Shown piece by piece: positions 1,978 through 25,320 of a stretch of DNA of 25,320 nucleotides. Every line of letters begins with the position of its first letter. Positions within the stretch are counted from its first letter, which is position 1. Source of the stretch: Marivirga arenosa (GTDB lineage: Bacteria > Bacteroidota > Bacteroidia > Cytophagales > Cyclobacteriaceae). The DNA is taken from the NCBI RefSeq assembly GCF_030503875.2, contig NZ_CP129969.1, positions 1 to 25,320 of the forward strand. The letters are read 5' to 3'. The translations under genes were made by a program, and so were the position numbers. The notes under the pieces are model-generated. The model was not told the DNA's origin. It ran no database searches and was given only the letters and a program-made list of their open reading frames with translations.

Positions 1978-3584
1978 TCATTTCCACTGTGCGTAGTGTT
2001 TTATTTTTTCAAGCTTATTATTTCTTGCGTAGGTAGCTTTTTTGACATCGTGAAATTTACTCCAAACCTTTCTCTGTATTGTCGAATTATTGTGTCATCC
2101 TTGTTTATTTCTTTCATAACGTGATTTGCCTTGTTCAGATAACTGATAAAATTACCCCAATCGTAATGTTTAGAAGGACTATAACCAGTTGCACTGTTCT
2201 CATCTGGTAACCACTTTAGCCGTCTTTGCGAACCTAAATGTGTAAATCTCTTATATAGTCGCGTTTCAAAAAAGTGAGTCAGAGGGTATGTGAGCTGATT
2301 TTGCAAAATGAACACCCCTTCTAAATGACCTTTTCATAGTTCTATAAAATTTCAAAAACCTATGTTTTTACTCTGATTTTTGAGCCGTCATACATGAACC
2401 CCAAATATTCTAATTGTTTGTTAGGATTTAATATCTCATTTTTTATTAAACCGCCTTTAAATTCTGTGTTTTTGTTTAACTCATATCTGTAGATATTGAT
2501 TTTTTGGTTGAATGTCAAGATTTGCTTCGACTTCAATTTCTTTTTGAGAATTAATTGATAAAAGTGCTTCCATCTTTCTGGTCGCAAATTATTCTCAAGT
2601 CGTCACTATCTGCTCTTTTTGGTAATATGCGTTTCTTGATGTTGTCTCTGAATAAACTTTTTCATCAAAGTCTAACATATAAATATTTGCTAGTGTTGCA
2701 CTTATTGGTGTGCCCTGTGGTATTCCTTTCTTTTCTTCTTTATTCAGTTTTTTTCGAATACCCTGTTTATATGGCTTGTCCGCTCTTATTAAATCAGTAG
2801 CTTCTTCAAAGAACTCATTCTTATCACAAAATGCGACTACATTTTCGTGTCGCATATTGTAAATTTCACTAACCTTTTTTTACGCTTGAGTTCTTTTTGA
2901 GAAGTATCATTTGGTAAAAATCTTTCAATTATAAGTTTATGCTGAAACCTTTTAAATAATTCGTTTTCATTTACATATTTGTTATCCACCAAAATTTTAA
3001 AACTGTATAATGGTCATCTGGTAAATTAGTGGAATTCAAAACTCGTTTCCATTGACGATGTAAGATCCGATGGTCTAAATTGTCAAAGAATGCAGTAACA
3101 TCAGCAACTATAATTGATAGTTTTCGATGTTTGTTGTTTTCTACAAATTCAAAAGACTCAAACGCAAATTCGATATTGGATTTATTTCCGCTTTTACCAT
3201 TTCCAATTGGTATTTTTCTGTAAGCAACAGCGACAGAGCCATAAGGCTTATTCTCTAAATATTCTTCATAGGCTTTTGTTAGAAGATGGCTGTAATAGCT
3301 ATAAATATTAGAATCTAAATGGGTTGGAAAGTAAATATGACGTTCTTTTTTATCACTAACTGTACGTTGCCTTTTACCACTGCTGTTTTTTGGCGCATTT
3401 TCAGTGGGTCTATATTTTCTTTTGACTTAAAGTTCTGTGCAACAGAGGTACAAACTTGTGATTGGCAATATTCTCAGGATTTTCAATATAGTCTTTTAAC
3501 CAACCTTTGTCTTTTTTTGCTTGTTAGTGGTTTACCAATGTGCGGATACTTTTTGAATTTAAGCCATTCATCATTCATAGGCAT
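1978..3584 (-). pseudogene. Reverse transcriptase, UG/DRT-like, multiple frameshifts
   Basis: This is an RNA-directed DNA polymerase of about 535 aa when frames are joined. In order it shows: the N-terminus MPMNDEWLKFKKYPHIGKPL; HKFVPLLHRTL; KKERHIYFPTHLDSNIYSYY; the first catalytic Asp in ADVTAFFDNLDHR (about residue 160); GIPQGTPISATLANIYMLDF (about 287); SDDLRIIC (about 325); LEYLGFMYDG (about 390); and a C-terminal helical block, FTHLGSQRRLKWLPDE to SYLNKANHVMKEI. About nine indels break it, several in A or T runs. It ends at 1978 with KHYAQWK. There is no maturase or HNH part, so a group II intron is unlikely. The RHIYFPTHLDSxIYSYY and FFDNLDH text fits stand-alone UG-type RTs, several of which are anti-phage DRT systems. 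The exact class is undecided. The Tyr of the YxDD box is lost at one of the indels. Confidence 0.82.
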
Positions 3585-4177: not shown

Positions 4178-6163
4178 ATGATTATTTATCATAAAATTGA
4201 CAACTTCATATTTTCGTTATTCAATATCCAGTCTGAAGATGAAGGAAAACTCATAGAGGCTGCCAAGCAATTTTATTCCTTCCAAGGCATGGAACCAACC
4301 GTTTCTATTTCTGAAGGCCTACTCAAAATAGAACTTAATGAAAAAGCTTCAAATCAGGCTAATCAGGAGTTTCGAAAGGTATTGGATTTATGCAATAGCC
4401 GTCAATTTGAAGCAGCAAAGCCACTAATAGAGTCCATTATAAAGGATTCACCTCAAGTTTCAGAATTCCATAGAGTCTATGGCCAAATCCTATCTGAATT
4501 GGGCGATAACCAAGAAGAAGCACAAAACGAGTTGATTGACGCTTTAAAATGGGATCCAAATAATGAATGGGCATTACTCATGATGGGCAATATTTTAGTC
4601 AAAGAGAAAAATGATATTGATGGAGCCCTGAAATACTATGACCAAATTCTTGAGACCAATCCAGAAGAAAACATCACGCTTAATAATATTGGTGCAGTAA
4701 CCGCACTATGAACCAAGGCAGATTCTTGGGAGAAGACTAAAAATACTTTCAAAAATCAATAGAAATCCAGCCTGAGTTCCCTAACCCTTACTATGCATTG
4801 GGCAGATGTAACCGAGCACTCAAGCAACATTCAAAAGCTTTTGATTTAGCAATTACCGCAGCTAAAAAGAATAATCAGCGAGATGAGATTTATACAAGCT
4901 CGCTTCAATTAGCTTTAGATTCTGCCACAGCCATTCGTGAAGAAAGGGATGAATTCGAAACAGTAGAGGATTATAAACTGCGATTGCAAGATAGAGCAGG
5001 TATCGAAATTAGAATTGAGGATGATATCAGCATCCAAACGGCAGCTAAATTGGAAATTGATGAGAAATACAAACGAGGCTACCATTTAGTCAAGTTCAAT
5101 CCCAAGCATTCAAATGTCGAGCATTTAATTATGCACGAGCTGGTGCATTTGGAGTTTATTTTGGACGCTCGTGACAACGGTGAGAACTTCCTTTTCACCT
5201 CCTCTCAAGAGCATAAATCCAAGTTCGATAAGTCTTTTGCCAAATATCGAGTTAAACTTATTAAAAATGGGCTTGCGCCCGAAAAGGCAGATAACTTCCT
5301 TACCTCTTTGTTTGATGGGCTCAATGGACAATTATATAATACACCCATTGACATCTTCATTGAAGATCTCCTATACAAAAGACATCCAAATTTAAGACCA
5401 ACCCAATTCCTTTCAATCTTCAATATTGTTAAGGATGGTATCAAAGCCACTACTTCAAAAGATAATTGTCAATCTAACCCCTGCAAAAGTGGTTTCCGTT
5501 TCCAAAATTTTAAACTTGGTCAATGCCTTTCATTTTAAAGACCTATTCGGGGTAGATTTAATTCAACTTTCAAAGCTACTCCTTTAGAGAAAAAGCAAGC
5601 CGAAGAATTTTTTGAAGAGTTCAGTGAATATAGGCAAGACAAACAACCAGGGGAAGAATATGAAATCATTCAACATTGGGCGGAAGATCTAGAAATTGAT
5701 ACTTACTTCGAATTAAAAGATGAAAAGAAAGTTTACAAATCTCAATCAGCAAAAGTAAATTCTCCTGAAGATGTATTGGAATCAATTGAGAAAGATCCTT
5801 ACGGATTAGATCAAAAGAATCCTGATAATGAAGCAGAGATGAAAACATTCATCGAAACTCATTCCAAAGGAGATGTGAACGTCGGTGGCCATGTACATGG
5901 TGGAAGCTTTAAAATACTTCTCCAATATGCCGCAGGAAGATATTAAAAAAATAGCTTTTGAAATTGCTCATATTGGCATTACTGATTATCAACCCATCAA
6001 GTAATTATAAGGTAAGTTCCATTCCGGGTAAATCCTTTTCAGGTTATCACCTTTTAGCATATTATTACACAAGCTGGGCTTTGGCAGTCCGGAAATGCTT
6101 TCGCAACTCCAAATGCCATTCGATGAAGAATTCAGACTGGCTACACTACTTAATGAAAATTAA
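4178..6163 (+). pseudogene. TPR protein with HELVH metallopeptidase motif, disrupted
   Basis: First gene of a five-gene operon, about 660 aa when restored. The N-terminal half has TPR-like helix pairs: VSEFHRVYGQILSELGD, then ALKWDPNNEWALLMMGNIL, GALKYYDQILETNPEE, and PEFPNPYYALGRCNRAL up to about 4815. The middle carries HLIMHELVHLEFILDA; HELVH (5134-5148) fits the HExxH zinc site of metallopeptidases. The C-terminal part (5560-6163) is acidic and ends PEMLSQLQMPFDEEF. Frames break near 4700, 5470, 5562, 5890, 6000 and 6090, and a TAA at 4738-4740 is an in-frame stop not explained by one indel. The TPRs suggest a partner-binding scaffold that positions a protease. The substrate is unknown. 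It ends 2 bases before the MazG-like gene. Confidence 0.7.
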
Positions 6164-6165
6164 TC

Positions 6166-6780
6166 ATGAAACTACCTCCACTCTCCAAATGCTTTCCTAA
6201 CACCGAATCTTTGGCTGAACTATATGGCGGTTGGTCAGAAGGCCCAATCTTCAAAGTCAGCTTTACAGCTGAAAGCTTTGAGTTGGCAATTGAGAAAACC
6301 AACACCTATTTAGCTCAACATGGCTTTAACTATGAACTTCAATTGGAGGACTTTGAGGAAGAAAAATCTATCGATTTTGCAGATTTAACATTTGCCAGAA
6401 ACATCACTGCAAAAAATCAAATACTTTTAGCCTACCACCAACCACTTGATAATAACCCTTTAGATAATATCTTGGCTTTCCTTAACAGCTTCAGAGAAGA
6501 AAGAGACTGGAAGAAGTTCCACACTTCCAAAGACCTATCCCTTGCCATTAATTCCGAAGCAGGCGAATTAGCAGATCTATTCCTTTGGGATCGAGCGGAA
6601 AGGGTCAACGAGGAAAAGGTAAAAGACGAATTAGCAGATATTATAACTTATTGCATATATTTAGCAGACAACTACAAAATAGATTTATTGGATGCTATAG
6701 TATCCAAAACCATATCAAATTCAGAAAAATACCCTGTGGCCAAATCAAAAGGCTCTGCGAAAAAATATAACGATATATGA
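6166..6780 (+). CDS. MazG-like nucleotide pyrophosphohydrolase with N-terminal extension
   Basis: An intact 204-aa protein. Residues from about 107 on match the MazG-like/RS21-C6 fold: FLNSFREERDWKKFHTSKDL, then EAGE (131-134) and ELAD (155-158), the acidic helices that bind magnesium in this family, and the typical tail EKYPVAKSKGSAKKY. Members cut (d)NTPs to NMP and pyrophosphate. The first 100 residues (YGGWSEGPIFKVSFTAESFE and following) are not part of the usual 100-110 aa enzyme and I do not recognise them. The start ATG lies 2 bases after the TPR gene, and the stop overlaps the next start (ATGA at 6777-6780), so translation is probably coupled. In a defence setting it could lower nucleotide pools or clean modified nucleotides; that is inference. 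Confidence 0.85.
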   Translation: MKLPPLSKCFPNTESLAELYGGWSEGPIFKVSFTAESFELAIEKTNTYLAQHGFNYELQLEDFEEEKSIDFADLTFARNITAKNQILLAYHQPLDNNPLDNILAFLNSFREERDWKKFHTSKDLSLAINSEAGELADLFLWDRAERVNEEKVKDELADIITYCIYLADNYKIDLLDAIVSKTISNSEKYPVAKSKGSAKKYNDI

Positions 6781-8619
6781 TTGTATACAAATCAACCAAA
6801 AAAGATTTTCTAGTAGATGTGTATGATGCCAATATCAGAGACGTCGGAAGCAGTTAGAAAAAATTGTTTATTAAAGTTGGTGATAGCGAGCTTAATTCAT
6901 GGGGCAACTCAATTCCTCAGGTCGAAATAATTCTTAGGGATAAGGACATCCCTGATGATGCTTTGGTGGCGATTGAATATAACATTCCCCGAACACAAAA
7001 CAGATCATTTTATCATCAGTGGCACCGGTGAAAATGGAGAGGATAATGTAATCCTGATTGAATTAAAGCAATGGTCCAAAGCTACGCTTACAGAAAAAGA
7101 TGCCATCGTAACTACTCGCTTCGCTCATGGCGAAAAAGAAACAGTTCATCCTAGTTATCAAGCTTGGTCATACTCTATGCTTCTCAGAGGGTATAATGCT
7201 GCAGTCTATGAAGGAAAGATCAACCTTTTTCCATGTGCCTATCTCCACAATTATAATGATGATGGCATCATATCAAATGAATTCTATAAAGATCATATTA
7301 CAAACGCTCCGCTTTTTGTGAAGGAAATGATCGGAATTTGTCAAACGCTTTATAAAATATGGCGATAAAAAGGATTTGATTCTAACCATTGAAAATGGAG
7401 AATTAAGGCCTTCAAAGAAGCTAGCCAGCAGTTTAGCTTCATTACTTAAGGGTAATAAGGAATTCACTCTAATTGATACGCAAAAGGAAGTATACGAAAC
7501 CGCAAAAACTTGCGCTATTGCAGCAAAGAACGGCCACAAAAAAGTGCTGATTGTGGAGGGTGGCCCTGGTACTGGAAAATCGGTAATAGCCATTAATTTA
7601 TTGGTAGAGCTCACTAAAAAAGGGCTTATTACTCAATATGTCACAAAAAATTCAGCTCCTCGCGCAGTTTATGAATCCAAATTAACTGGAACAATTAAAA
7701 AAACACAGTTCTCAAATTTATTTTCAGGCTCAGGATCTTATTCTTCTGCCAAACCTAATTCTTACGATGCCCTTATTGTAGATGAGGCTCATCGATTAAA
7801 TGAGAAATCTGGTCTATATTCCAACTTAGGAGAGAACCAAATCAAAGAAATTATATCATCATCCGTTTTCTCTATTTTCTTTATAGATGAGAAACAAAAA
7901 ATACACATCAAGGACATAGGTTCTATTGAGCAAATTAAAGCGTGGGCAGAATTGGAAGATGCAGAAGTTCAAGTGATGGAATTAACTTCTCAATTTAGAT
8001 GCGAAGGTTCTGATGGTTACTTATCATGGCTTAATAATTCCCTTCAAATTAAAACAACGGCAAACAGAATTCTAAATGCAAAAGAATATGACTTTAGAGT
8101 TTACGATAATCCCAATGAACTACGTGATGAGATTTTCAAATTAAATAAGGTAGATAATAGTGCTAGGCTTTTGGCTGGTTATTGCTGGGATTGGAACGGT
8201 CAGAGAAGGATCCTGATCTGATGGATATTGTGATACCGGAACATAACTTTGAAATGCAGTGGAATCTAAATAAGAATGTCATGCTATGGATGATCAAACC
8301 TGATTCAGTATCTGAAATAGGATGTATTCATACATCTCAAGGCTTAGAAGCTGATTACGTAGGTGTAATTATTGGTCCTGACCTAATTGTCAGAAATGGC
8401 AAGATTATCACTAACGCATTCGAGCGGTCAGGAATGGATCATTCGATCAGAGGTTTCAAAAAACTTCATAAAGCTGACCCAAAGTCAACAAATTTGTTAA
8501 TGGATCAAATTATCAAGAACACCTATTACACTCTTATGACAAGGGCAATGAGAGGCTGTTTTATTTATTGCACTGATGAAGAAACATCTGATTATTTTAA
8601 AAATTTAATTGAGCATTAA
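6777..8619 (+). pseudogene. DUF2075 helicase with nuclease-like N-terminus (copy 1)
   Basis: About 614 aa when joined. The N-terminus MIVYKSTKKDFLVDVYDANI leads into a PD-(D/E)xK-like core: TDHFIISG, then VILIELKQW with ELK at about residue 95. The DUF2075 (Schlafen-like helicase) ATPase follows: GGPGTGKS (about 261-268), LIVDEAHR (about 334), LTSQFRCEGSDGYLSWLNN, and a C-terminal IGCIHTSQGLEADYVGVIIG plus TLMTRAMRGCFIY. The frame breaks near 6845 (a compensated pair that also explains the apparent TAG), 6985, 7368 and 8210. It starts inside the MazG stop codon. By family the protein should be a cytosolic nucleic-acid ATPase; the nuclease role rests on motif spacing. It is followed after 31 bases by a diverged paralogue. 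Confidence 0.85.
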
Positions 8620-8650
8620 ATTAATATAGCCTCGAAAATTCCCCATAGCC

Positions 8651-10518
8651 ATGAAGCTGTCTGGTAGTCTCCGATTTTATAAATGACAATAACCAAAACT
8701 TAATAGTCTCAAAGCTTCAGTCAGAATTCTTTAAGCATTTCCGCCAAGATCCCCAGCCAAGTGAAATCAGGTCCTGGAAGGAATCACTGCAAGCAATGAG
8801 CAGCATTTGAAAAACTAAAGTTCACCTCTCATGGTGTCCTACTAGAATACCAACTTCCATTAACATCCAAAAGACTCGACTGCCTAATCTGCGGTAAAGA
8901 CGATAATGGAAAAGAAAATGCAGTTATAATTGAGCTTAAACAATGGTCGGAAACCTTTGATTCAGATTGTGAAAATTCCCTTTCTGTCAATTATGGAGTA
9001 GAACTAAAAGAATTATTGCACCCTTCAGTGCAGGTCGGCCAATATGCCGAATATCTTTCCGAAAATCATTCGATTTTCACAAGCAATACCGATATCCCTC
9101 TTTTCGCTTGCGCTTATTTACACAACTATGATTACTCATCCACTGACCCTCTCTTCAATAATAAGTTTTCAGATCAGATCTCCAAATACCCTATTTTTTG
9201 TAAAAAGGAAGAATCAAATATTAGAGGAATTCTTATTATCTAAACTTTCTAAAGGAGATGGCTTGCCAACTTTGGAGAAAATCCAGGAGGGTAAATATAA
9301 TCCCCCAAAAAAATTACTCTCTGAAGTCAGTGAAATTTTTAAAAGACCGATCGCCTTATATTCTTCTTGATGAGCAACTGGTCGTTTTCGATAAGGTGAA
9401 AACATTAATTAAAAATGCATACCAGACTAATAAGAAAGCAGCCGTTATTGTAAAAGGTGGCCCTGGCACTGGCAAATCTGTCATAGCTTTAAACTTACTT
9501 TCTTACTTTTTACACAACAAGTATAAATCACATTACGCCACGGGCTCAAAAGCTTTTACTGAAACTTTCGGAAAATATTTGGAGCAAAGTAAGAAATTTT
9601 TTCACCTACTTTAATGAATACAGAAATGCCTATCAAGATGATCTCGATGTACTTATCTGCGATGAAGCGCATCGCATAAGGGAGTCTAGTAACAACAGGT
9701 TTCAAAAAAATAATGGAAAAACAATCCCACAATTATATGAAATCTTAAAAGCTTCTAGAGTTACAGTTTTATTTATTGATGATTTTCAAATAGTGCGCCC
9801 TGGTGAAATAGGTTCAATCAAATATGTAAAGGAATATGCAGAATCAAAAAATGTCCAAGTCTTTGAATATGAATTGGAATCTCAATTCAGATGCAATGGT
9901 TCTGATGGTTTCATCAATTGGCTAAATAACACATTAGGCATCAAAGCCACAGCCAATGTCATTTGGAAAGAAGCGGATCACTCTACTTATGACTTTAGAA
10001 TTATCGATTCCCCTCAAAAACTAGAACAATTAATTATCAAAAAAAATAAAGAAGGTCATTCTGCCAGAATGGTAGCAGGTTTTTGTTGGCAATGGTCAGA
10101 TCCTGATCCAAAAACAGGGCAGTTGAAAGAAGATGTTATAATTGGAGACTTTAAAAGATCATGGAACGCAAAAGAATTTTCTAAGAACAAATTAGCCCCT
10201 AATATCCCTAAATCCTCATTATGGGCATATAGCAAAAATGGCATTGGCCAAGTAGGTTGTGTTTACACTGCTCAAGGATTCGAATTTGATTATGTAGGTG
10301 TGATTTTCGGGAAAGACATGGTCTATGATCTGGATAATGGAACATGGAAAGGACTTCCTGAAAACTCACATGACAGACCTGTAAAAAAAGATAAGGTCAA
10401 TTACGAAAACTACATTAAGAATACCTATAAGATATTAATGTCACGAGGCATAAAAGGCTGTTATATTCATTTTATAGATAAAGACACAGAACGCTTTTTC
10501 AAATCGAGAATGGAATAA
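8651..10518 (+). pseudogene. DUF2075 helicase with nuclease-like N-terminus (copy 2)
   Basis: A second, diverged member of the same family, about 620 aa. The start at 8651 is uncertain, because the frame shifts near 8670 before VVSDFINDNNQNLIVSKLQ. The nuclease-like core is LLEYQLPLTSKRLDCLICG and then VIIELKQWSE (ELK at about residue 94). The helicase part has GGPGTGKS (about 270), LICDEAHRIRESS (about 337), LESQFRCNGSDGFINWLNN, VGCVYTAQGFEFDYVGVIFG and ILMSRGIKGCYIHF. Breaks occur near 8808, 9225, 9350 and 9600; from 9610 to the stop the frame is clean. Both copies keep the Walker A and B residues and the ELK, so neither looks like a dead duplicate. The next gene begins 15 bases later. Confidence 0.85.
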
Positions 10519-10533
10519 TACAAATGAATTAAA

Positions 10534-11485
10534 ATGGTCTTAAAAAAGAAATTTATGTTATTTGACTTAATTGATGAAACCTTTGATAAAACAATAAAGA
10601 CTGATTTACAAAATGACTACCTCAATCAAGTACAAGTATCAAAAAGATGGGCATGTTATAGTGATTATTGTTTTGATGATCCACAAAAGCCAAATGATGT
10701 TGTTTGTTTTACTTTAATTCCCTATTTCGATGATTTCCACCAACTATCAGATAAAATTCAAGATTTGGCTAATGTTGATATTAAAAATACAAGAAAGGTC
10801 AGAAAAGAATTTACAGAATTTCTAAAAACATATCCTTTAATTAATTTTTCATTTATACTAAATGATAAAAGAAGATTTTGGTAATAATCATGAAGAAAGG
10901 AAAAAGACACTCAAAAAAGAATATACCGACCTAAAGAAAAAATATAAAGAATGGCTTAACAATCAACCAGATCAAAAAGAATATTATAGTCAAATTATTA
11001 AAAAAATTGACTGTGTTTTACTATCTATTGAGAGGAATAAAAAAATTAAACAAATTATTGGGATGACTTTAGTAACAGCATTAGGTGCATATGTCTCCAA
11101 CCAGGTAGTTAAAAAACTGGATTTAGATATTTTTGGTTGGTTTTCAGACAGAGATAGTATAAATGAAGTTTGTGATAATTTTTCTATTCAGTTATTTCAC
11201 ACTTATTTACATAATTTTTCAGATGGTAAGCAATTCAAATTTTTAGCTTCTCCAGCAGGAAGCACAGCTAATGCTTTTTATGAACAACTAGTAAGAATTC
11301 CAGACTATATATCTGGAACAATTTCTGACTATGATAGGAAACTTAATCAGATCAGTAATGATAAGTTTGACGCAATGCTTACAAACTACATGGCAGGTAA
11401 TACTCATAATAACTTTGTATTGAAATTATCGACTGATGTTAATGGATTATATTGCTCAAGAATATTAATAGATCTAAAGGAATAA
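10534..11485 (+). pseudogene. Unknown protein with one possible membrane segment
   Basis: About 316 aa when its two pieces (10534-10884 and 10862-11485) are joined; one indel near 10875 separates them. I do not recognise it. The first third is mixed and acidic (SKRWACYSDYCFDDPQ, then LIPYFDDFHQLSDKI). Next comes a charged, probably helical or coiled stretch, HEERKKTLKKEYTDLKKKYK. A moderately hydrophobic segment, IIGMTLVTALGAYVSNQVV (about 11059-11115), could cross the membrane or lie on it. The C-terminal domain ends with STDVNGLYCSRILIDLKE. It is last in the operon, 15 bases after the second helicase. A membrane-linked effector or partner is possible, but only from context. Confidence 0.55.
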
Positions 11486-11727
11486 GCCTTCCTAATTAAT
11501 ATCCATTCTGTTAAATTTTAGATGTAAAAAGCGACTGCATCTCGATAATTTGCAAACCAAACAGCCGGTTTTTTTTTCAAAATTAATCATCTAACTTCAT
11601 AACTATATTTTTAAAATAAAAGAATGAAATATCACAGAGGATACCCACTCAATCAATTTTCTCATAGATTCAAATCAACCTAGAAATAAACGATATAAAA
11701 CTATACCTTAACTCAAATTCGACCAAC
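11486..11727. other. Intergenic region between operon and endonuclease I
   Basis: There are 242 A+T-rich bases without a gene. An AGCCGG followed by nine Ts at about 11561-11577 could mark the operon's end, but I find no good stem for it. The promoter of the endonuclease gene should lie near 11640-11720. Confidence 0.3.
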
Positions 11728-12789
11728 ATGAAACCTCAACTAACCTTATTTTTAGCATTTCTTGTATTTTCGCTTTCAGCTCAAATCCCGAAGGCTATTA
11801 TGAAACTACAGCTGGTCTCGATGGTGAAGAACTAAAGGCAGAACTTCATGAAATCATTAACGACCATGAAATTTACACCTACACAAGTTCCAATACCGAT
11901 ACTTGGGACATCGTCGAGCAAACCGATAAAGACCCAGAAGATGGAAGCTATGTAATTGGCTTCTATTCTGGTTTCAAAATGGATGCATCTAAAGAGTACG
12001 ATAATGGCAATGGCTGGAACGAGAGAACACGTTTGGGCTAAAAGCCGTGGAAGTTTAGGCACAAATAGGGGTCCCGGCACTGATGTTCATAACCTACGAG
12101 CTGCAGACATCTCAACTAACTCAGCACGAAACAACCGCAATTTTGACGAAGCAGATGACCAATACATAGATGAATCAGGTCAACACCAAGGAGAAACAGA
12201 CAGCTACACAAGTTAGTCCGAATGGATATGGGAACCAAGAGACAAAGTTAAGGGAGATGTAGCAAGAATACTTTTCTATATGGCCACTCGCTACGAGGGC
12301 ACAAACGGAGAACCTGATTTAGAACTAAGAGAAACTACTAAGTAATGACAGCAATGAACCCTACCATGCGCGTCTTTCAGTTTTGCTCAAATGGCATGAA
12401 GAAGATCCCGTAGACGAAATAGAAAGAAATAGAAATGATGTCATTTATTCATTCCAGGAAAACCGTAATCCTTTCGTTGACCATCCCGAATTCGTTTCAC
12501 TCATCTGGGAGGGTGCGGAAGCTGAAGAACCGGAACCAGTCCTATCCACAAAAGAAGAAATCAAAAACAAATTCAAATTCTACCCTAATCCAGTAAAAAC
12601 AAATTTCACAATTGATGCTCCGAGAGGTACAAAATTCACAGTTATAGATTCAACTGGTAAAGTTATAATTGAAAATAACTCGAAAAGAAAAACTCAAAAT
12701 AAGATAGCATCATTTAATGCTGGTATCTATACCCTGCTTACTCAATTAAGGATATAGAAATTTCATTTCAACTAATAAAAAGTGAGTGA
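11728..12789 (+). pseudogene. Secreted endonuclease I with T9SS C-terminal domain, disrupted
   Basis: About 353 aa when joined. A signal peptide, MKPQLTLFLAFLVFSLSAQ, opens it. The body matches the endonuclease I family (Endonuclease_1, related to Vibrio Vvn/Dns): NREHVWAKSRG at about residue 97 with the catalytic His, GTDVHNLRAAD, WEPRDKVKGDVARILFYMA, and [10 protein letters not shown]. The end, [15 protein letters not shown] to [10 protein letters not shown], is a typical T9SS sorting domain, so the enzyme should be exported or surface-bound and degrade DNA outside the cell. Breaks are near 11790, 12020, 12343 and 12755, and a TAG at 12214-12216 interrupts an otherwise continuous frame. It has its own promoter region and is not part of the preceding operon. 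A nutrient or DNA-uptake role is as likely as any defence role. Confidence 0.85.
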
Positions 12790-13000
12790 TTTTTTTACTT
12801 ATTAATTACCTCTTTTTTTTCTATCAAATTAAACACCCTAAATAAAACATATTCGATCAAATACCTTTAAAATATATTATTTTCCTTAATTTAACTACTT
12901 ATACTCCAAGCATACATTAATTAGTAACAATTTATATCTGCAATATAATTATTATCTGTATCTGGTATGTGCTAAGTAATTGAAGCCAAATAAAAAAACC

Positions 13001-16000
13001 ATGAAAATTAAATTACCCAAAATAGAAAAGCACATCCATACTAATGGCAGTAATTCTATAAAGCAATATTATAAAGAGTCAATTACAGCAAACTTCGAAT
13101 TTGTTAAAAGCACACCTTTTATAATTTCCTCAAACGAAGAATCATATTTTATCACTAGTAGAATTGATGATGAAATTCCTAATAATTGTAAATACGCTTT
13201 ACTAGCTTCAAAAAAACCAAAAAAAAAGGATTTCTTATCAAATTCATTAAAATTAAAAAGATGGCTAAAGCATCCTTTATTTAAAGACTTGTCACCTCAA
13301 GAAGTTGTTTCTTCATGGAAAAATAACTTTAGGTTTATAAAAGAAGATGTTGAGAACGGAATTAAAGGATTACGGCCTCCCCAAATTGGTGCTCTTTATT
13401 CCATATTAGCTCATATCCAAACACCAGAGGAAAAGGGCATTGTAGTTATGCCGACTGGAACAGGTAAAACAGAAACAATGATATCAACCTTAGTAGTTAA
13501 TGAATGCAAAAAATTATTAGTTGCTGTCCCATCAGATTCATTACGTACTCAGTTATCAGCAAAATTTAGCACCCTTGGATTGATTAGGGATTTTGGGATG
13601 GTCAATGATTCTTGTCATAATCCTATAGTAGGGATAATCAATGAGAAATTTGAAAGTGAAGAATATCTTTTAGAGTTTATCACTAAATCAAATGTAGTCA
13701 TTACAACAATGAGCATTCTTGCAGGTAGTTCCTATGAACATCAAATTGCTTTTTCTAACTCATTTAGTCATTTATTTGTTGATGAGGCTCATCATTCCGA
13801 GGCAAGTTCGTGGAAAGAATTTATCAATCATTTTAATAAAGAAAAGGTCTTTCTTTTTACTGCAACTCCGTTTAGAAATGACGGTAAGAATTTAGATGGT
13901 AAATTTATTTTTAATTTATCCCTTAAAGAAGCACAAAGACAAGGGTACTATAAACAAATCAACTTCTTACCTATAAGAGAATATGATAAAACTGAAGCAG
14001 ATAAGAAAATAGCAGTAAAAGCAGTAAATAAATTAAAAGAAGATATTGCTAATGGGTATCCCCATATAATTATGGCAAGATGTGTTTCAAAGAACAGAGC
14101 TGTAGAGGTCTTTGAACACTATAGGATATATGAAGATTTAAATCCAATCTTAGTGTACACTGGTATTCCAAATCTGAAAAACAAATTAAAAGCAGTAAAG
14201 GAAAAAAAACATAGTATTGTTGTATGTGTAAATATGCTTGGAGAGGGATTTGATCTTCCTGAATTAAAAATTGCTGCTATTCATGATGAAAGGCAAAGTT
14301 TACCAATTACTCTTCAATTTGTAGGTAGGTTTACCAGGACATCTTTTAATTCTCTAGGAAATGCTAGCTTTATAACAAATATCGCATACCCTCCAAATTC
14401 AGAGAACTCAATAATCTTTATGCCAAAAATGCTGATTGGAATCTTTTGCTTCCAAACATGAGTGAAGGTGCAACAGACAAAGAAATTGATTTCCAAGAAT
14501 TTTTAGATGGTTTCAATAATCTAGAGGATTCTAAAATACCCTTTCAAAATATAAACCCTGCAATGAGTTCAGTTGTGTTTAAAAATAGTGGAAGAGAATG
14601 GTACCCTAATAATTGGAGGCAGGGTATTAGCAACATAGGAACATATCAACATCAATTTAGTAATCATAATCCTGATAAGAAAACATTGGTAATAATATTA
14701 GGAAAGGTAGAAAAGGTAGATTGGGGTGATTTTGATGTTGTGCAAGATATGGAGTGGAATATGATTGTTGTACATTGGGATTTGCGCCACGATAGGAATT
14801 TGATATTTGTTCATACATCATTAAAAATTTATCATCAGAAAAGTTAACTAAAGCAATTTTTGGTGAAGACGTTAATCAAATTGACGGCACTAACATGTTT
14901 AAGATTTTTCATAATGTTAAAAGACTCACATTGTATAATGTAGGCGCTAGACCATGCAGCGCGATATTCGTTTTTCATCTTTCTTTTAAAAGGCATACGG
15001 TTGAAGTACAAGCAAGGCACACTTATCAGAGTAATTTTTTCATGTAGGTTTTAAAGTAGAAGAAAATATAGTTAGGATGCTCTATCAAAGGTAAAGTTTG
15101 GTCTTACTTAAGAGGGAATTTAAATGAGTTAACTCAATGGTGTGAGTCTATTGGAGATGCACTTGATGATCCTAATATAAATCCAAATACTGTTTTAGAA
15201 AACACGCTTGTCCCAGAAATAATAACCCAACGGCCAAATGTAGCTCCCATTGCAGTTGAATGGCATTATAAAATGTTTCAGTACTAGAGAACAGATATAT
15301 AATTAGCATTAATGGTAACGATTATGACCTTTCTAATTCAGAACTAAATATTGTTGATAGTCCTGCCGATTCGCCTTTAAGGTTTTGCTTCAAATGCAAA
15401 GACTATATTATAAATTATGAATTAGTATTAGGGTCTAAGTCTGTCAATAGCAAACCAGAGGCTTTCTTTGAAGTGAAAAAAAAATCTACGGAAGATCCTA
15501 TAATAACTTATGGTAGCACTAGAGAAAGTCTCACTTACTTTTTACAAAAATACACTCCCACTTTTTGGTTTGCCAACGGTGCCCAATTATTTCAAAATAA
15601 TCTTGTTACGCCTAAAGAAAGTGTTGATGGAATTTCATTAAAAAACATCATTCCAATGAATTGGAATGGGTTTCTATAAGAAAAAGAATCCCAAGGCATT
15701 GCTCCATACGAAACAGATTCAATTCAATATCATTTATAAATGAAGTTCACAAAGATTTTGAAATCATCTATGATGATGATGGTTCTGGCGAAATTGCAGA
15801 TGTTATCGGAATAAATAATGGAGACAAAACAATTGACATCCACTTATTTCATTTGAAATATGCTAAAAACGGTCGGACTAGTAACGATATCAGTAATTTT
15901 TATGAAGTCTGCGGTCAAGCACAAAAATCTTTGAATTGGAAGTCTCGTGATGGTAAGGATTTCTTTAATCGTCTGTTCAGAAGAGTAACAAAATCAAAAA

Positions 16001-16220
16001 ACGATGTCACTTGTAGCAGAATAATCAAAGGCAACGAGGAAGATTTGGAACTTTTCTAAATGCTGCCAAATGGACTAAAGAAATGAAATTTCATATTTAC
16101 ATTGTTCAACCTAGTCTAGTCAAAAATGAGGCCTCGAAAAGTATTTTGCTATTATTAGGCAATACTCAACATTATTTACAGACTGTCGGAAATGTTGAAT
16201 TAAAAGTTTATTCAAGCTAA
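13001..16220 (+). pseudogene. SF2 DEAD/DEAH helicase with C-terminal nuclease-like domain, disrupted
   Basis: About 1073 aa when joined; I prefer the ATG at 13001 to the upstream TTG at 12980. Clean helicase frame to about 14390: LRPPQIGALYSIL, Walker A MPTGTGKTE (about 150), LFVDEAHH (about 260), LFTATPFRNDG, and motif VI QFVGRFTRTS (about 438). The long middle (14400-15650) is broken near 14390, 14818, about 14950-15070, 15285 and 15675, but each frame reads on, for example GCSIKGKVWSYLRGNLNEL. The C-terminus has YDDDGSGEIADVIGI and then DIHLFHLKYA (about residue 949), a spacing that suggests a PD-(D/E)xK-like nuclease. It resembles the restriction-type and single-gene defence helicases found in defence islands. 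I cannot name the exact system. A terminator-like hairpin follows 90 bases downstream. Confidence 0.8.
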
Positions 16221-20417: not shown

Positions 20418-20726
20418 GTGTCCAATTAGTGTCCATAAAAATTAAACCACTAATATATAACTGACAATCAACACCTTATAAGATTTAACGGTAGCCCAGG
20501 TGGGCCCACTTTCAAAAATCATTTTGATACAAAAAGCCTTAAATCTTACGATTTTTAGGCTTTTTTATTTTTTATCATTCAATAAAAACCAATTAATATC
20601 AAATAAAAAGTGTCCATTTGGTGTCCATTTTGAAATTGTATATTTTTGAACACTCGGCCCTTTCAAGCAAGTAGAGGCCGTTTTGCTGTCTGTTGTAATT
20701 ATTTCTGCTCATGCTTTAGTGTCCAT
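20418..20726. other. Candidate attP: GTGTCCAT arm sites around a core
   Basis: The word GTGTCCA(T) occurs at 20418-20424, 20429-20436, 20610-20617, 20621-20628 and 20719-20726, all in the same direction and in closely spaced pairs on both sides. Between them lies the only G+C-rich island, GTAGCCCAGGTGGGCCCAC (about 20491-20509), with GCCCA/TGGGC symmetry. Arm repeats on both sides of a core, directly before a tyrosine integrase gene, are the normal form of attP in this group. The core assignment is inference. I see no second copy of the island, as expected for the excised circle. Confidence 0.5.
20531..20568. terminator. Strong bidirectional terminator hairpin
   Basis: AAAAAGCC (20531) pairs with GGCTTTTT (20558), and the inner TAAATC pairs with GATTT, leaving a small loop and one bulge. 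It has A- and T-runs on both sides. It lies inside the attP-like region, so it could insulate the integrase from chromosomal transcription, or be part of the recombination site. Confidence 0.65.
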
Positions 20727-20742
20727 TTTAACATTACGCAAC

Positions 20743-21996
20743 ATGAGCAATTCAAAAAATCATTCATTAAGTACTTTACTGTATGTAAAGAAGCATCGCA
20801 TCAAGGAAGGTTTAGCCCCTTTTGTATCTGCGAATTTCAACCACCAATTCGAGAGTAGAATATTCACTCAGTAGAAAAGTAGAATTCAAAAAGTGGAACT
20901 ATAACAAGCAAAGGTTAGGAGGATCCACTCAGGAAACAAAAAAGTTAAATCGTTTCCTGGATCAACTAATAGATAGAATTCACAAAATTTATGAAGAGCT
21001 GATACTGAACCAAGAATATGTAACAGCCGAAGTAATTAGAAACAAACTTTTCAACCTGGAAGAAGAAAGCGAAATCACCCTACTCTATCTTTCAAAGTAT
21101 CACTTAGAGAACTTCACAAACTAAAGTGGAGCACACTAAAACACTACAAAGTGACAGAGAGATATTTTCAAAGATTCCTAAAGGCAAAACACAAGTTAAG
21201 CGACATCCCTTTGAAAAGTATTGACTATAAATTTCTAATCGATTTTGAAGATTTCCTTCGCAATTGGAAACCAAAGGACCATCAAAAGGCACTAAATAAT
21301 AATGGTGTGATGAAGCACATGATAAGATTTAGGAAACTTTTAAAACTAGCCCAAAGGCTCGATTGGATAGAAAAGAACCCATTTAAAAAATATCAAACCC
21401 ATTTTGAAAAATTTGAAAGAGAATATCTGGATGGGAATGAACTTCAAGCCATTGAGGAAAAAGAGTTTAATATCCCAAGGCTCGAAATGGTAAGAGATAT
21501 CTTTATATTCAGCTGTTATACAGGCCTATCTTATGTTGATATCTATCATTTATCGAAAGATAATATTTCTATAGGCATGGATGGTGAGAGATGGATTCAT
21601 TTGAAAAGAAAAAAGAAAACGAATACATCCTTCTCGGTGATGCTTTTGCCAAAGGCAGAACACATTATTGAAAAATATACAGATCATCCAAGAGCTTTTG
21701 AAAATCAGCTTTTACCTGTTTTATCTAACCAAAAAACCAACGCCTATCTAAAGGAAATTGCAGATCTATGCGGCATAAAGAAAACGCTAACCTTTCATAT
21801 AGCCCGACATACCTTTGCCACCACGGTTACTCTTACGAATGGAGTACCGATTGAAACAGTGAGCAAAATGTTAGGCCATACCAAGTTGGCCACCACACAG
21901 ATTTACGCTAAAGTGGTCGAGAATAAAATAGGTGAAGATATGGCTGCACTAAAGCAGAAATTATCACAATCCGAGCAACTGAAAAAGGCAGATTAA
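20743..21996 (+). pseudogene. Tyrosine recombinase/integrase, IntDOT-like, two compensating frameshifts
   Basis: 417 aa when joined; the +1 and -1 shifts cancel. I chose the ATG at 20743 (MSNSKNHSLSTLLYVKKHRI), which opens the arm-binding domain. The frame shifts in the TTTT run near 20820, giving YLRISTTNSRVEYSLSRKVE. The core-binding domain (KVTERYFQRFLKAKHKLSDI) follows the second shift near 21110. The catalytic domain shows FSCYTGLSYVDIYHL, TFHIARHTFATT (His-x-x-Arg), MLGHTKLATTQIYAKV and the nucleophile Tyr. The first catalytic Arg is Ser in TGLSY, as reported for IntDOT of CTnDOT. It should integrate and excise the element at the attP-like site just upstream. A perfect terminator follows. 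Confidence 0.9.
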
Positions 21997-22012
21997 TCTG
22001 CCTTTTCTTTTT
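21983..22012 (+). terminator. Integrase terminator overlapping the stop codon
   Basis: AAAAGGCAGATT (21983-21994) and AATCTGCCTTTT (21995-22006) form a perfect 24-base palindrome followed by CTTTTTT. The integrase stop TAA (21994-21996) sits at its centre. Confidence 0.85.
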
Positions 22013-22174
22013 TACCGAGCAATATAATTTAATACCCAATAGTTTTAATTATTATATTTTAAATACAACAGTATACTTATGGAATAATATTTGATATCAA
22101 ACGAACCAATATTTCAGTCAAAACAGAACCATTCTCCCCACTTTTGGAACCAATAATTAAACTATTAAACCCTA

Positions 22175-23386
22175 TTGAAAAGTTGGGTGTTTGGATTAAG
22201 AGACCTATTTGACTATATCGTCTCTAGATCTAAAAATGAAAAACAACAACTATCAAAATCAGAATTTCATGAATGGAAGCAGAACCTCTTAAAAGAAGAA
22301 GAACGGCTAAGGCAAAGCTTAATGAAAATGGTCTTTGTCAATCAGGATGACCAAGCCATTGAAAGGCAAGTACAATTCTACCAGCACAAACTGATTACCA
22401 TTTCAAAAGAGGTAGCCAATCAGATTGAATACCTCCAATTCCTTATGAGCGCATTATCAAAAAAGATGACTACAGATCTCAATTAGGGCATCTATTTCTT
22501 AAAATTCTCTCTGACCTATTAACCTTTATTGAAAATCACTTTGCCCGATATTTCAATCAGGACAGCGAAGTACCCACCACTTATTTTGAAAGGTCCAGTA
22601 CACAGCTGCGCTATAAATTATTTAAATACGAAAGAGCTCGGAGACCTAAAAATATAGATCCTCCCCTTTTGAAAATTATTATTCATAGCATTCAAAAAGC
22701 AATAGACAACCCAAAAGGCATCTCCTACCGCAAGTTTATCTATTGTAAAACATTCCTTCTGAAATGCTGGTTATGCTTTCTCGAGATCCGAAAGGCATTA
22801 AGATGGAAAAACAGATTATTACCAACTTAATATATCTGAACTTCAATGTATTTGCCATTTACAATTACATTAGCAACCGACTTACTGAGCACTATCAAGC
22901 CAAATCCAATTATAATGATCAGCTACTGCAATTGCAGCTTTTCAAAAAGTTGATCAATCAATCTCATATAAAGCCTGATTTTGAATTTCATTCCAATACT
23001 CCAAGTCTTAAAGAAAGCCTTTTAATTTGGATTGAGGAGGAAATTGTGCTTTTGAAGAAAGAAAGCAGCTTTCAATTCAATACCAACAACCAGAGGTAGC
23101 CTGGAATAAAGCACATAAAACCAAAAAGCTTTACAGTACACTTTCAGTATCACAGCTAGCCTATTTCATGAGGTTATTGTCAAATGCTAACATTATAACC
23201 CTTGAAAGTAAAGCCAAATTAATTGAATTAATATCAGATAACTTTTCTACTACGAGTCAGAAAGACATCTCCGTTAAGAGCTTAAAAAATAAAATCTATT
23301 CACCCGAATTTTCAACAATTGAGAACATTCAAAATCTGTTAGAAAACTTAATCCAAATGACCGAAAAGGATAAAACGATAAATTAA
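22175..23386 (+). pseudogene. RteC-region-like unknown protein, frameshifted
   Basis: About 400 aa in four frame pieces. Piece 1 is helical and charged: KSEFHEWKQNLLKEEERLRQ, then QFYQHKLITISKEVANQIEY. It shifts near 22470 into FLKILSDLLTFIENHFARYF and TYFERSSTQLRYKLFKYE, near 22765 into MEKQIITNLIYLNFNVFAIY, and near 23090 into LSVSQLAYFMRLLSNANIIT, ending with LLENLIQMTEKDK. I know this family as an unannotated protein regularly found next to integrases in Bacteroidota elements. It recalls RteC in size, helix content and position, but I would not claim homology. The start is uncertain: TTG at 22175 is the first codon of the clean frame, and coding may begin earlier in another frame after 22079. 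Confidence 0.6.
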
Positions 23387-23521
23387 TTTAACTTTCTTTC
23401 ATTTCAAAAACTGTATTTGAACCAAATGGAAAAGGGTTATGGAGTTATGACCGCTTTCCAACTGTTTTAGCATTTGGCACACTCCTTCTTTCCAGCTTTG
23501 CCAATGACAACAAACAAGTGA

Positions 23522-23794
23522 ATGATTCTGGCAGCCGGAAATAATCACAACGAATGGCTTGAATTCAAACTGGAATTACTCGATGATTTCAGAAAGCTTT
23601 TAGCAGAACAAAAAGGGATCCCCACCAAAAAGTGGCTACGATCCGAAGAAGTCAAAAAGCTTTTAAACATCAGTCCGGGTACACTCCAAAATTTGAGAGT
23701 AAACGGCACACTCCCCTTCACAAAAATGGGTGGTGTTTTATACTACGATGCACAGGATATTCAAAATATCTTACAATCAAATAAGATAGGCTGA
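23522..23794 (+). CDS. Excisionase-like helix-turn-helix protein
   Basis: Intact, 90 aa. After an acidic N-terminal helix (NEWLEFKLELLDDFRKLLAE) comes an HTH_17/MerR-like DNA-binding fold: KKWLRSEEVKKLLNISPGTL, then LRVNGTLPFTKMGGVLYYDA and the helix QDIQNILQSN. This is the Bacteroidota Xis/regulator family that is usual beside integrases and mobilisation genes. Expected roles are directing excision at the att sites or regulating the replication genes that follow 21 bases downstream. No frameshift is present. The upstream 135 bases (23387-23521) are gene-free and should hold the promoter. Confidence 0.85.
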   Translation: MILAAGNNHNEWLEFKLELLDDFRKLLAEQKGIPTKKWLRSEEVKKLLNISPGTLQNLRVNGTLPFTKMGGVLYYDAQDIQNILQSNKIG

Positions 23795-23815
23795 GATAAA
23801 TGAGCAGAAAATAGT

Positions 23816-24547
23816 ATGAAGAAACCGGTGAATTTTATTCACCAGTTTCTTTCCGCTATGGATAAAATATCTGAGGAGAAAAGCTTCAATCCAACACATG
23901 TAAGTCTTTATGTGAGCTTATTCACAAGGTGGAACTTAAACCATTTTAGAAACCCAATATCCATCAACAGAGAAGAGGTGATGACGATTTCTAAAATAGG
24001 TTCTAAAAACACCTATCATAAGTGCTTAAAGGATTTACAAAAAAGTGGATTTATTGATTACCTCCCTTCTCATAACCCTATGAAAGGCAGCCAAATCAAC
24101 ATGCTCAAAATCAGTACAACTACTGATACAAGCACTGAACAAGTGGTGGACAAGTACAATACAACTACTACACAAGTAGTGAGCCCTTCATTAAACAATA
24201 TAAACAGTATAAACAATACAAAGAATATAGATATAGGCTCGAATAAAAATTCAACTAAAAAATTTAAGCCACCAAAATTAGACGAGGTGAAAAATTATCT
24301 CGAAAAGGAGAAATCAAAAGAATATGAACTACAGAAAAAAGAAATCGACCAGGAGGCCGAAAAATTCCTCAACTACTATTCAGCCAAAGGCTGGATAGTA
24401 GGCAAAAATTCAAAAATGAAAGACTGGCAAGCTGCTCTTCGCAACTGGTTATTGAATTACAAAAAATTCAACCCATCAGACACCAAACAAAACCAAGCCG
24501 GCCACCTCCACAACAACGAAATCAAAGACTATGATATACCCCTCTAA
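23816..24547 (+). CDS. DnaD-like replication protein
   Basis: Intact, 243 aa. The N-terminal half is a winged-helix-like domain: NPTHVSLYVSLFTRWNLNHF, INREEVMTISKIGSKNTYHK, then CLKDLQKSGFIDYLPSH. A Thr/Ser/Asn-rich linker (residues about 100-145) follows. The C-terminus has AEKFLNYYSAKGWIVGKNSK and MKDWQAALRNWLLNY, the tryptophan pattern (W.VG...MKDW..A.RNW) of DnaD-like primosome proteins in Bacteroidota phages and elements. It probably binds the element origin and works with the DnaC-like ATPase encoded downstream, past the repeats. It follows the HTH gene by 21 bases in the same direction. Replication function is inferred from family and order. Confidence 0.75.
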   Translation: MKKPVNFIHQFLSAMDKISEEKSFNPTHVSLYVSLFTRWNLNHFRNPISINREEVMTISKIGSKNTYHKCLKDLQKSGFIDYLPSHNPMKGSQINMLKISTTTDTSTEQVVDKYNTTTTQVVSPSLNNINSINNTKNIDIGSNKNSTKKFKPPKLDEVKNYLEKEKSKEYELQKKEIDQEAEKFLNYYSAKGWIVGKNSKMKDWQAALRNWLLNYKKFNPSDTKQNQAGHLHNNEIKDYDIPL

Positions 24548-24549
24548 CC

Positions 24550-24571
24550 TCTGCAGCATAAGGTCTGCAGA
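24550..24571. repeat. Perfect hairpin after the replication gene
   Basis: TCTGCAG, an 8-base loop and CTGCAGA form a 7-bp stem 3 bases after the stop codon. There is no T-run, so it is not a typical terminator. It may be mRNA end structure or part of the following repeat block. Confidence 0.5.
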
Positions 24572-24583
24572 AACCAGCGCGCA

Positions 24584-24969
24584 GGAAGGTCGAAAATAGC
24601 GGGCCAGCTGCTGGATGCAGCGTTGAAGCATGATATTGTTGTGCCTTTTGAATACTTTTTGGCTAGAAAAAAGTTGAACTGACGACTCCTTTTCTTTGAG
24701 CGAGGGAAGGACAAAATAGCGGGCCAGCGGTAGCCATGCGGGTGGAAGCATCATTTTGCCTTGATTTTTGCAATACTTTTTATCAAGAAAAAGTATGAAA
24801 CAGAAAACCTAAAACTATAAAGATAAAACTAATGAAAGCAAATACTCAGCAAATAAGCACAATCCCTAGGCGGGCTGGATTGGTGAAAAGGCGGGCCAGA
24901 GTTGGCCAGTGCATGGCAGCATCTTTTCACCATGCTTTTTGCATACTTTTTAGCTAGAAAAAGTATGAA
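24584..24969 (+). repeat. Three degenerate ~90-95-bp direct repeats, each with a hairpin
   Basis: The units are at 24584-24678, 24705-24799 and 24880-24969. The first two open with GGAAGG and AAAATAGCGGGCCAGC; all three share GCGGGCCAG near the start, an AGCAT in the middle and a 3' hairpin ATACTTTTTnnCnAGAAAAAGT. In unit 3 the hairpin is perfect: CATACTTTTT, AGCTAG, AAAAAGTATG. The middles vary, but each keeps a short stem of its own. They fill the gap between the DnaD-like and DnaC-like genes. Iterons of a replication origin and REP-like extragenic palindromes are both possible; the palindromic end favours REP-like elements, the location favours an origin. Confidence 0.7.
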
Positions 24970-25004
24970 GTAAATGACTTCAATATTTATTAATAAGGAT
25001 TACG

Positions 25005-25320
25005 ATGGCATCAAATGAAATAAACTTAAAGAACTATAGATCAAAAAAATTCCAATTCCACCACTGCTTAAACTTCCTTCAAAAAGCAGGACAAACAGAA
25101 TTCGGAAATCACTTCAAAATCCATGAAGCCGATCATGAAATTCTCTTCAAAATACTGGCCTACTTCTATGAAGATGAAGAAATCTGTAGTGATAATAACA
25201 TCTCATTGCGGAAAGGATTACTACTCACAGGACCAGTAGGCTGCGGCAAAACAAAACTAATGATGCTCTTCAGGCACTTCCTCCACAAAGTCCATAAATA
25301 CTCAGTAAAATCAACTAGAG
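25005..25320 (+). CDS. DnaC-like ATPase, N-terminal part (runs off window end)
   Basis: The ATG at 25005 opens MASNEINLKNYRSKKFQFHH. The family block FGNHFKIHEADHEILFKILA and the Walker A loop LLLTGPVGCGKTKLMMLF (about residues 74-91) follow. The frame runs off the window one base into codon 106, and it is completed in frame by bases 1-2 and the text at 1-337. The full protein would be about 217 aa, close to the usual family length, with Walker A here and Walker B on the other side of the cut. It lies downstream of the DnaD-like gene and the repeat block and probably loads the host replicative helicase onto the element. This is the family of small Bacteroidota ATPases often labelled DnaC/IstB-like. 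Confidence 0.85.
   Translation, partial: MASNEINLKNYRSKKFQFHHCLNFLQKAGQTEFGNHFKIHEADHEILFKILAYFYEDEEICSDNNISLRKGLLLTGPVGCGKTKLMMLFRHFLHKVHKYSVKSTR

Follow-up and report, generated by a model that had tools for sequence, protein, structure and literature searches.

A TPR-HExxH gene that leads a MazG and helicase operon on a mobile element of Marivirga and stands beside diverse defence genes in related bacteria

Genes of the operon

The genome of Marivirga arenosa (assembly GCF_030503875.2) consists of two contigs, here called C1 and C2. The window, that is, the whole stretch of 25,320 nucleotides analysed here, is C2:1-25320 (NZ_CP129969.1); since C1 accounts for 4,022,893 of the 4,048,213 bases, C2 is no larger than the window. 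As listed below, an operon of five genes in a row was found on the + strand at positions 4178 to 11485. It is led by a gene whose product has tetratricopeptide repeats (TPR) and an HExxH motif, and this TPR-HExxH gene is the main subject of this report.

4178-6163, + strand: TPR-HExxH protein, 658 amino acids on C1; TPR helices at about residues 60-252, HExxH domain after about residue 270
5134-5148, + strand: HELVH (HExxH) motif; H316, E317, and H320 invariant in 52 of 52 aligned rows
6166-6780, + strand: MazG-like, predicted nucleoside triphosphate (NTP) pyrophosphohydrolase, 204 amino acids; PF12643, E = 1.2e-14; ExxE/ExxD motif
6777-8619, + strand: HEL1, 619 amino acids on C1; N-terminal PD-(D/E)xK-like nuclease domain (D80, E98, K100) and SLFN-g3 helicase
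8651-10518, + strand: HEL2, second nuclease-helicase of the HEL1 family, 624 amino acids on C1; PF09848
10534-11485, + strand: 317-amino-acid protein (on C1), not a conserved member; no family match

An original prediction, made from the letters of this DNA, had described five co-directional genes with gaps of 2, -4, 31, and 15 bases, and the gaps are as described, with 29 in place of 31 on C1. Its naming of a TPR-HExxH protein, a MazG protein, and two DUF2075 helicases was borne out by a TPR match with a conserved HExxH motif, by PF12643, and by PF09848 in both helicases, DUF2075 being the former name of PF09848 (SLFN-g3 helicase; SLFN, Schlafen). All of the operon genes except the MazG gene are broken by indels in the window, while all five are intact on C1 (in stretches L026/L027), where they encode proteins of 658, 204, 619, 624, and 317 amino acids in gene order. 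The simplest reading of the broken frames is thus that thin coverage of C2 left sequencing errors in it. Against this, homopolymers of three or more hold only 39 of the 152 indels. An alternative genetic code was rejected: table 4 did not restore the frames, and the intact C1 copy accounts for the breaks.

In the TPR-HExxH protein, N384, P386, D388, and E392 are also invariant in the 52 rows, and the conserved residues suggest that the protein is probably an active zinc metallopeptidase. The MazG residues E134, E155, and D158 are kept in 47 of 47 rows and E131 in 46 of 47; I take these four to be the catalytic residues of a predicted NTP pyrophosphohydrolase. HEL1 matches PF09848 at 4.5e-101 over model positions 1-354 of 354, above the curated cut-off, and HEL2, read from a window piece, matches it at 8e-79 over positions 45-354. 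The Walker A and B motifs and D80, E98, and K100 are invariant in the 19 helicases chosen for alignment, which are of the form of about 620 residues and include HEL1 and not the HEL2 of the window. For the N-terminal domain, a NERD profile matched only at 0.023, below the cut-off, and the fold searches were dominated by the helicase part. The best Foldseek match of HEL1 is SLFN11 (7zel_A, 9.0e-11). HEL1 (L026:17188-19047) could be aligned from about residue 8 with SLFN11 from residue 404, with a high root-mean-square deviation, and so the nuclease-like domain sits at the Schlafen middle region. The middle region is a linker in Schlafen proteins, and a common origin of the two is possible.

The 317-residue protein had no Pfam match at E 0.01. 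No core gene of BREX, DISARM, or restriction-modification systems was found in the operon, whose proteins were scanned as window pieces and, for the first, third, and fifth, whole.

A leader gene with changing partners

Is the gene order conserved in other bacteria? A scan of 84,980 species genomes with two peptide patterns gave 129 TPR-HExxH relatives, of which the best 80 were kept as loci. The order TPR-HExxH, MazG, SLFN-type helicase was found in 38 of these 80 loci, in a few of them with one gene in between. MazG is followed by a gene of family f3 in eight further loci (seven with f5; L084 ends in f3), and MazG is thus present in 46. TPR-HExxH and MazG are spaced by -8 to +10 bases in 36 of the 46 loci, and MazG and the helicase by -14 to +27 in 35 of the 38. 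The TPR-HExxH gene is usually the first gene of its locus, and a co-directional gene lies within 300 base pairs downstream in 68 of the 80. Its occurrence is patchy: 22 of 395 genomes of the phylum have it in a survey at E <= 1e-30, the Marivirga genome included. One search listed 1,684 homologous proteins. The helicases of the loci come in the form of 619 residues and in others of about 565 and 730.

To the original prediction, the five genes looked like one self-contained system with a possible sensor protease among its parts. The neighbourhood is conserved as far as the first three genes in order are concerned, but none of the 80 loci has the 317-residue gene, and few have HEL2. The HEL1-HEL2 tandem recurs in Rufibacter (L043) and Pontibacter (L069), which have a four-gene version of the operon, while in the stretches read of the two Marivirga relatives with the triad HEL1 was found and HEL2 was not. 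Moreover, the TPR-HExxH gene stands beside many different defence systems, as listed below. The idea that the five genes form one self-contained system is therefore not supported, and the TPR-HExxH gene is not specific to the Marivirga set.

A defence partner was assigned in 74 of the 80 loci, including the 38 helicase loci; representatives were scanned, and the remaining members were placed by BLAST family. The other partners are as follows.

McrC-like, 10 loci: the eight MazG-f3 loci, L052, and L083 (f5: DUF2357 and PDDEXK_7; f3: PDC-M26A, no Pfam match at 1e-5)
Type I restriction, 5 loci: L055, L063, L094, L102, L107
Type III restriction, 4 loci: L056, L091, L093, and L108 (on the other strand)
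SNF2/DrmD-like f18 (DISARM-like), 4 loci: L104, L111, L112, L117
PLD-SNF2 f28, 3 loci: L109, L114, L116
BREX, 6 loci: L058, L073, L065; L051 and L100 (on the other strand); L119 (BrxL upstream)
IIG/DrmMI-like: L090, L106
PDC-S57: L072
Argonaute-like, weak match (8.6e-15): L103

Among the 67 first non-MazG downstream genes (at least 150 amino acids, within a 300-base-pair chain), the PADLOC family PDC-S41 matched 14, PDC-M26A eight, and DrmD seven, with 161 families in all; these genes are not independent, many being of one family. In a control of 80 genes, from 20 stretches at fixed positions outside the defence islands of four related genomes, the 25 PADLOC families listed, of 80, each matched one gene at 1e-10, the counts being per family only.

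How often has the partner changed? A tree was made by a quick method with no bootstrap from the window and 79 of the loci, 80 rows in all, the short row L056 being left out. With the partners in ten groups, it needs 27 partner changes; the minimum is nine, and shuffled labels gave a mean of 33.8, with none of 200 shuffles as low as 27. Taken by itself, the MazG-helicase label requires 12 changes, at least eight of them by well-supported branches, and 24.9 when shuffled. The partners are partly inherited and often changed.

Sixteen pairs, chosen by eye from the tree, were compared at the DNA level. L064, with a helicase, and L057, with an McrC-like partner, are 93% identical over 439 C-terminal residues and share the DNA from 9101 to 11629, that is, to one base past the MazG stop codon. 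The homology of L064 and L077 likewise ends one base past this codon, and that of L064 and L078 at 11621, seven bases before it. Between L114 (PLD-SNF2) and L117 (f18), which are 96% identical, the DNA match reaches four bases beyond the stop codon of TPR-HExxH; the f18 gene of L117 is also SNF2-type, but its BLAST family differs from that of L114. Both L064 and L057 share DNA with L102 (type I) to 132-135 bases past the TPR-HExxH stop codon. Where the pairs are less alike and the partners differ (L107/L104, L107/L108, L055/L090, L055/L052, L058/L072, and L058/L071), the shared DNA stops 10-79 bases short of the stop codon. L070 and L101 have the leader and MazG in common, and L070 has an extra gene between them. 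Of the remaining pairs, two (L070/L099 and L111/L110) tell nothing, being cut short by the ends of contigs, and no match was obtained for L040/L054 at the DNA level. In summary, the leader stays and the effector changes, at or near gene boundaries.

The mobile element and its other cargo

The operon rides on a mobile element of this marine bacterium. It was found that C2 is an imperfect, circularly permuted copy of C1 3523630-3549079: window 1-20615 corresponds to C1 3528450-3549079 and window 20493-25320 to C1 3523630-3528449, with 98% identity each. The alignment has 25,581 columns, 215 mismatches, and 152 indel events. Since the last and first bases of C2 are adjacent on C1 and an AAA protein gene spans the C2 ends, C2 is a circle opened at an arbitrary point. 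That the window might be a second genomic copy, a paralogue, or a separate locus was rejected, as its ends are consecutive on C1 and an att junction lies within it.

On C1, the 3′ end of a tRNA-Met gene holds the start of the element, and an identical 35-base-pair core marks its other end. Through this core, at window 20493-20527, the inner flank of the right end runs on into that of the left end, and thus C2 looks like the excised circle of an integrative element. The same junction would arise from a tandem duplication carried by some of the cells. The marks of an integrative element found here are a tyrosine integrase, att direct repeats at tRNA-Met, and a circular form, for which a tandem copy is the alternative source. 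The features of the element other than the operon are as follows.

20493-20527, no strand: att core, 35 base pairs (attP-like; circle junction); identical copies flank the chromosomal element
20683-21996, + strand: tyrosine integrase, 437 amino acids; PF13102 and PF00589; adjoins the left end of the element
2001-3584, - strand: DRT2-type defence reverse transcriptase, 524 amino acids on C1; PDLC03757 (PADLOC) at 9.9e-133 over residues 6-516 of 524; YSDD
1107-1875, + strand: DUF2971 protein of the candidate defence family PDC-S31; match at 4.5e-49

The DRT2-type gene lies upstream of the operon in divergent orientation; for an RNA partner or template non-coding RNA, an Rfam search of L026 5400-20000 matched tRNA only. 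Downstream of the operon, at window 11728-12789 on the + strand, is a gene for Endonuclease I with a secretion-sorting tail, relatives of which are found close to the operon in G003 and G004 too. At window 12980-16220 on the + strand, a ResIII-type helicase (622 amino acids on C1, partial PbeA match) is followed by a 448-residue protein without a Pfam or PADLOC match; these two are perhaps a further cargo system.

The element has relatives with other contents. G530, a genome of the same species, has a related element at the same tRNA-Met, with the same backbone and different genes in between. The backbone identities are 73% for the integrase, 58% for a 401-residue protein, 47% for a 249-residue protein, and 82% for the AAA protein; the right end is common to both elements with 80% DNA identity. 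The TPR-HExxH gene was not found in a search of the G530 genome. M. sericea (L040) has these backbone genes close to TPR-HExxH, MazG, and HEL1. The span of the tRNA-Met site, taken from two flank positions, varies among G003-G006 and G530, of which the contents were read in G530. In addition, backbone genes (for a MerR-like helix-turn-helix protein, recognised by eye, a protein of 249-300 residues, and the AAA protein) were seen near TPR-HExxH in L040, L107, and L110-L112, from Marivirga and Flavobacterium.

The TPR-HExxH gene also occurs on other replicons. A Hymenobacter plasmid (L178, NZ_CP114769.1) has TPR-HExxH and MazG, followed by a 618-residue ATPase without a match to HEL and by PLD-like pieces. 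Two DUF2075-annotated genes lie about 4 kb or more upstream on the plasmid, one of which (629 residues) is 52% identical to HEL2; this is perhaps another change of effector. A 22-kb record named as a Microcystis phage (L179, PP438423.1) has the triad of Bacteroidota type, with identities of 43% for TPR-HExxH, 54% for MazG, and 55% for HEL1. It also carries a ParA-like gene and may be a plasmid. A viral origin of TPR-HExxH was rejected: a scan of IMG/VR with two peptide patterns yielded no relative, and one record, L179, that is a phage by name has the triad.

A proposed control unit, its rivals, and known systems

The original prediction of a defence system agrees with the recurrent core on a mobile element that holds other defence genes; a defence role itself is proposed as follows. 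I consider it an even call that the operon is a mobile anti-invader module composed of a shared control unit and exchangeable effectors. Gene order, conserved catalytic residues, the association with many defence systems, effector change at gene boundaries, and mobility are observed, and peptidase activity, its trigger, its substrate, and phage resistance are what I infer. The control unit would be the TPR-HExxH protein, often with MazG, its TPR superhelix binding a partner, and the effector would be one or two PD-(D/E)xK-SLFN helicases that unwind and cut invading or replicating DNA. The TPR domain may sense either a subunit of the effector or some mark of infection, upon which the peptidase would cleave a repressor, an inhibitor, or the effector and thereby license the downstream nuclease-helicase, and MazG may lower or clean the NTPs.

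A wider suggestion is tentative, and I regard it as possible rather than probable. TPR-HExxH, often with MazG, would be a general-purpose proteolytic immune switch, joined on mobile elements of Bacteroidota to any DNA-attacking weapon available: SLFN nuclease-helicases, McrC-like systems, BREX, type I, IIG, and III restriction, or SNF2 systems. If this is true, a control layer is common to defence systems that are now considered unrelated, and it explains how mobile elements safely carry, or switch on in time, weapons that endanger their own bearer. The TPR-HExxH gene would then be a marker for new effectors, namely whatever follows it. Near-identical pairs that carry different effectors open the controller idea to a test, in which one controller is combined with exchanged weapons.

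Several results weigh against the anti-invader module and its control unit. Firstly, no model covering the C-terminal 434 residues of TPR-HExxH was found in Pfam or PADLOC (full length) or in NCBIfam (window pieces), and the fold matches fell mainly on residues 54-252, the TPR part; the metallopeptidase assignment thus rests on motif conservation. As for the peptidase family, none of the fold matches listed fell on the C-terminal half, an absence from which I draw no conclusion. Secondly, an XRE gene of the one family sought lies directly upstream in only eight of the 80 loci and was not found in the element stretch searched (L026), and HTH_3 matched seven of 53 upstream open reading frames. 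A simple circuit in which the protease cuts a repressor is therefore not general, and the XRE-protease pair was rejected as a general rule. Thirdly, the partners are more clustered on the tree than shuffled labels, so that their association with the leader is partly inherited.

Fourthly, no partner was assigned in six of the 80 loci (L042, which has a short MazG-like open reading frame only, L066, L080, L088, L099, and L110), the contigs of L088, L099, and L110 ending less than 100 bases from the TPR-HExxH gene. A further sample of 20 stretches comprised 17 from the other 21 survey genomes and three from the earlier search for relatives; five were already among the 80. Of the 15 further loci, L131 has an adjoining type III gene, and L125 and L135 have an SNF2-type gene some genes away. 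The other 12 have no neighbour that BLAST, the method used for this sample, places in a defence family of the first set. One divergent genus, g174, supplies 12 of the 15. On this evidence, the link to defence extends over the branch around the query but not over the whole TPR-HExxH family.

Could the HExxH protein tame the weapons rather than trigger them? By analogy with proteolytic restriction alleviation, it might destroy or restrain the linked enzymes that attack DNA while the element becomes established in a new host. Most of the assigned partners besides the SLFN helicases can endanger unprotected host DNA, and TPR-HExxH is usually the first gene, on mobile elements. There is a precedent in ArdC, a plasmid protein with a metalloprotease domain, which, in the part of the source consulted, aids conjugation past the restriction system of the recipient (PMC7213743). 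Restraint leaves unexplained, however, both MazG, present in more than half of the loci, and the SLFN helicases, which come without a methylase, and I regard it as rather doubtful.

A little less likely still, the TPR-HExxH gene, with or without MazG, may be a complete defence gene of its own that moves in defence islands and lands before other systems. Loci without a recognised partner do exist, chiefly in the one divergent genus. Defence genes cluster anyway, the Marivirga element holding DRT2 and PDC-S31 as well, and the assigned neighbour is on the other strand in L051, L100, and L108. An independent neighbour is, however, at odds with the overlaps or short spacings to MazG and the helicase, with the co-directional downstream gene in 68 loci, and with effector changes at gene ends. 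An ordinary housekeeping or repair operon is highly improbable: MazG and UvrD-like helicases occur also in nucleotide sanitation and repair, but this gene is patchy in the phylum, had no match in the same-species genome, and lies in a mobile location with defence neighbours.

For the anti-invader module, how does it compare with what is known? In keeping with the original prediction, which knew of no named system with exactly this gene set, none was found for MazG with DUF2075 in searches of the open-access literature. No description of the gene set or of the TPR-HExxH leader was found there, including the parts consulted of PMC11090510, PMC12458937, PMC12839542, and PMC13092281, and the main text of a 2026 survey of BREX diversity (PMC12839542) has no TPR, HExxH, zincin, metallopeptidase, or MazG. 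A role of MazG in defence was predicted before: as far as the text consulted goes, DefensePredictor has MazG among the uncharacterised domains of its predicted defence systems and does not give the Marivirga gene set (PMC13092281).

The McrBC-type, BREX, DISARM-like, and restriction systems of Bacteroidota stand, in some genomes, beside the same TPR-HExxH gene, whereas their effector genes are other than those of the Marivirga operon. ImmA/IrrE-type metallopeptidases work with an XRE repressor. The HExxH proteins with an adjoining helix-turn-helix regulator, in eight of the 80 loci, resemble them, but TPR-HExxH differs in its TPR domain, in that the libraries searched gave no known peptidase family for it, and in usually having no XRE gene of the family sought.

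Nhi is a nuclease joined to a helicase, and HEL1 matches Nhi at 3.3e-12, AbiO at 1.2e-12, and PDC-S41 at 9.1e-14 in PADLOC. These matches are partial, covering residues 233-415 for Nhi and 219-415 for AbiO, short of full length, and at best 3-287 of the 619 residues for PDC-S41. Furthermore, HEL is accompanied by MazG and TPR-HExxH, and its helicase is PF09848. HEL1 shares this helicase family with the group 3 Schlafen proteins, such as human SLFN11 and SLFN14, from which HEL differs by a PD-(D/E)xK-like motif domain (D80, E98, K100) before the helicase and by its bacterial, defence-associated setting.

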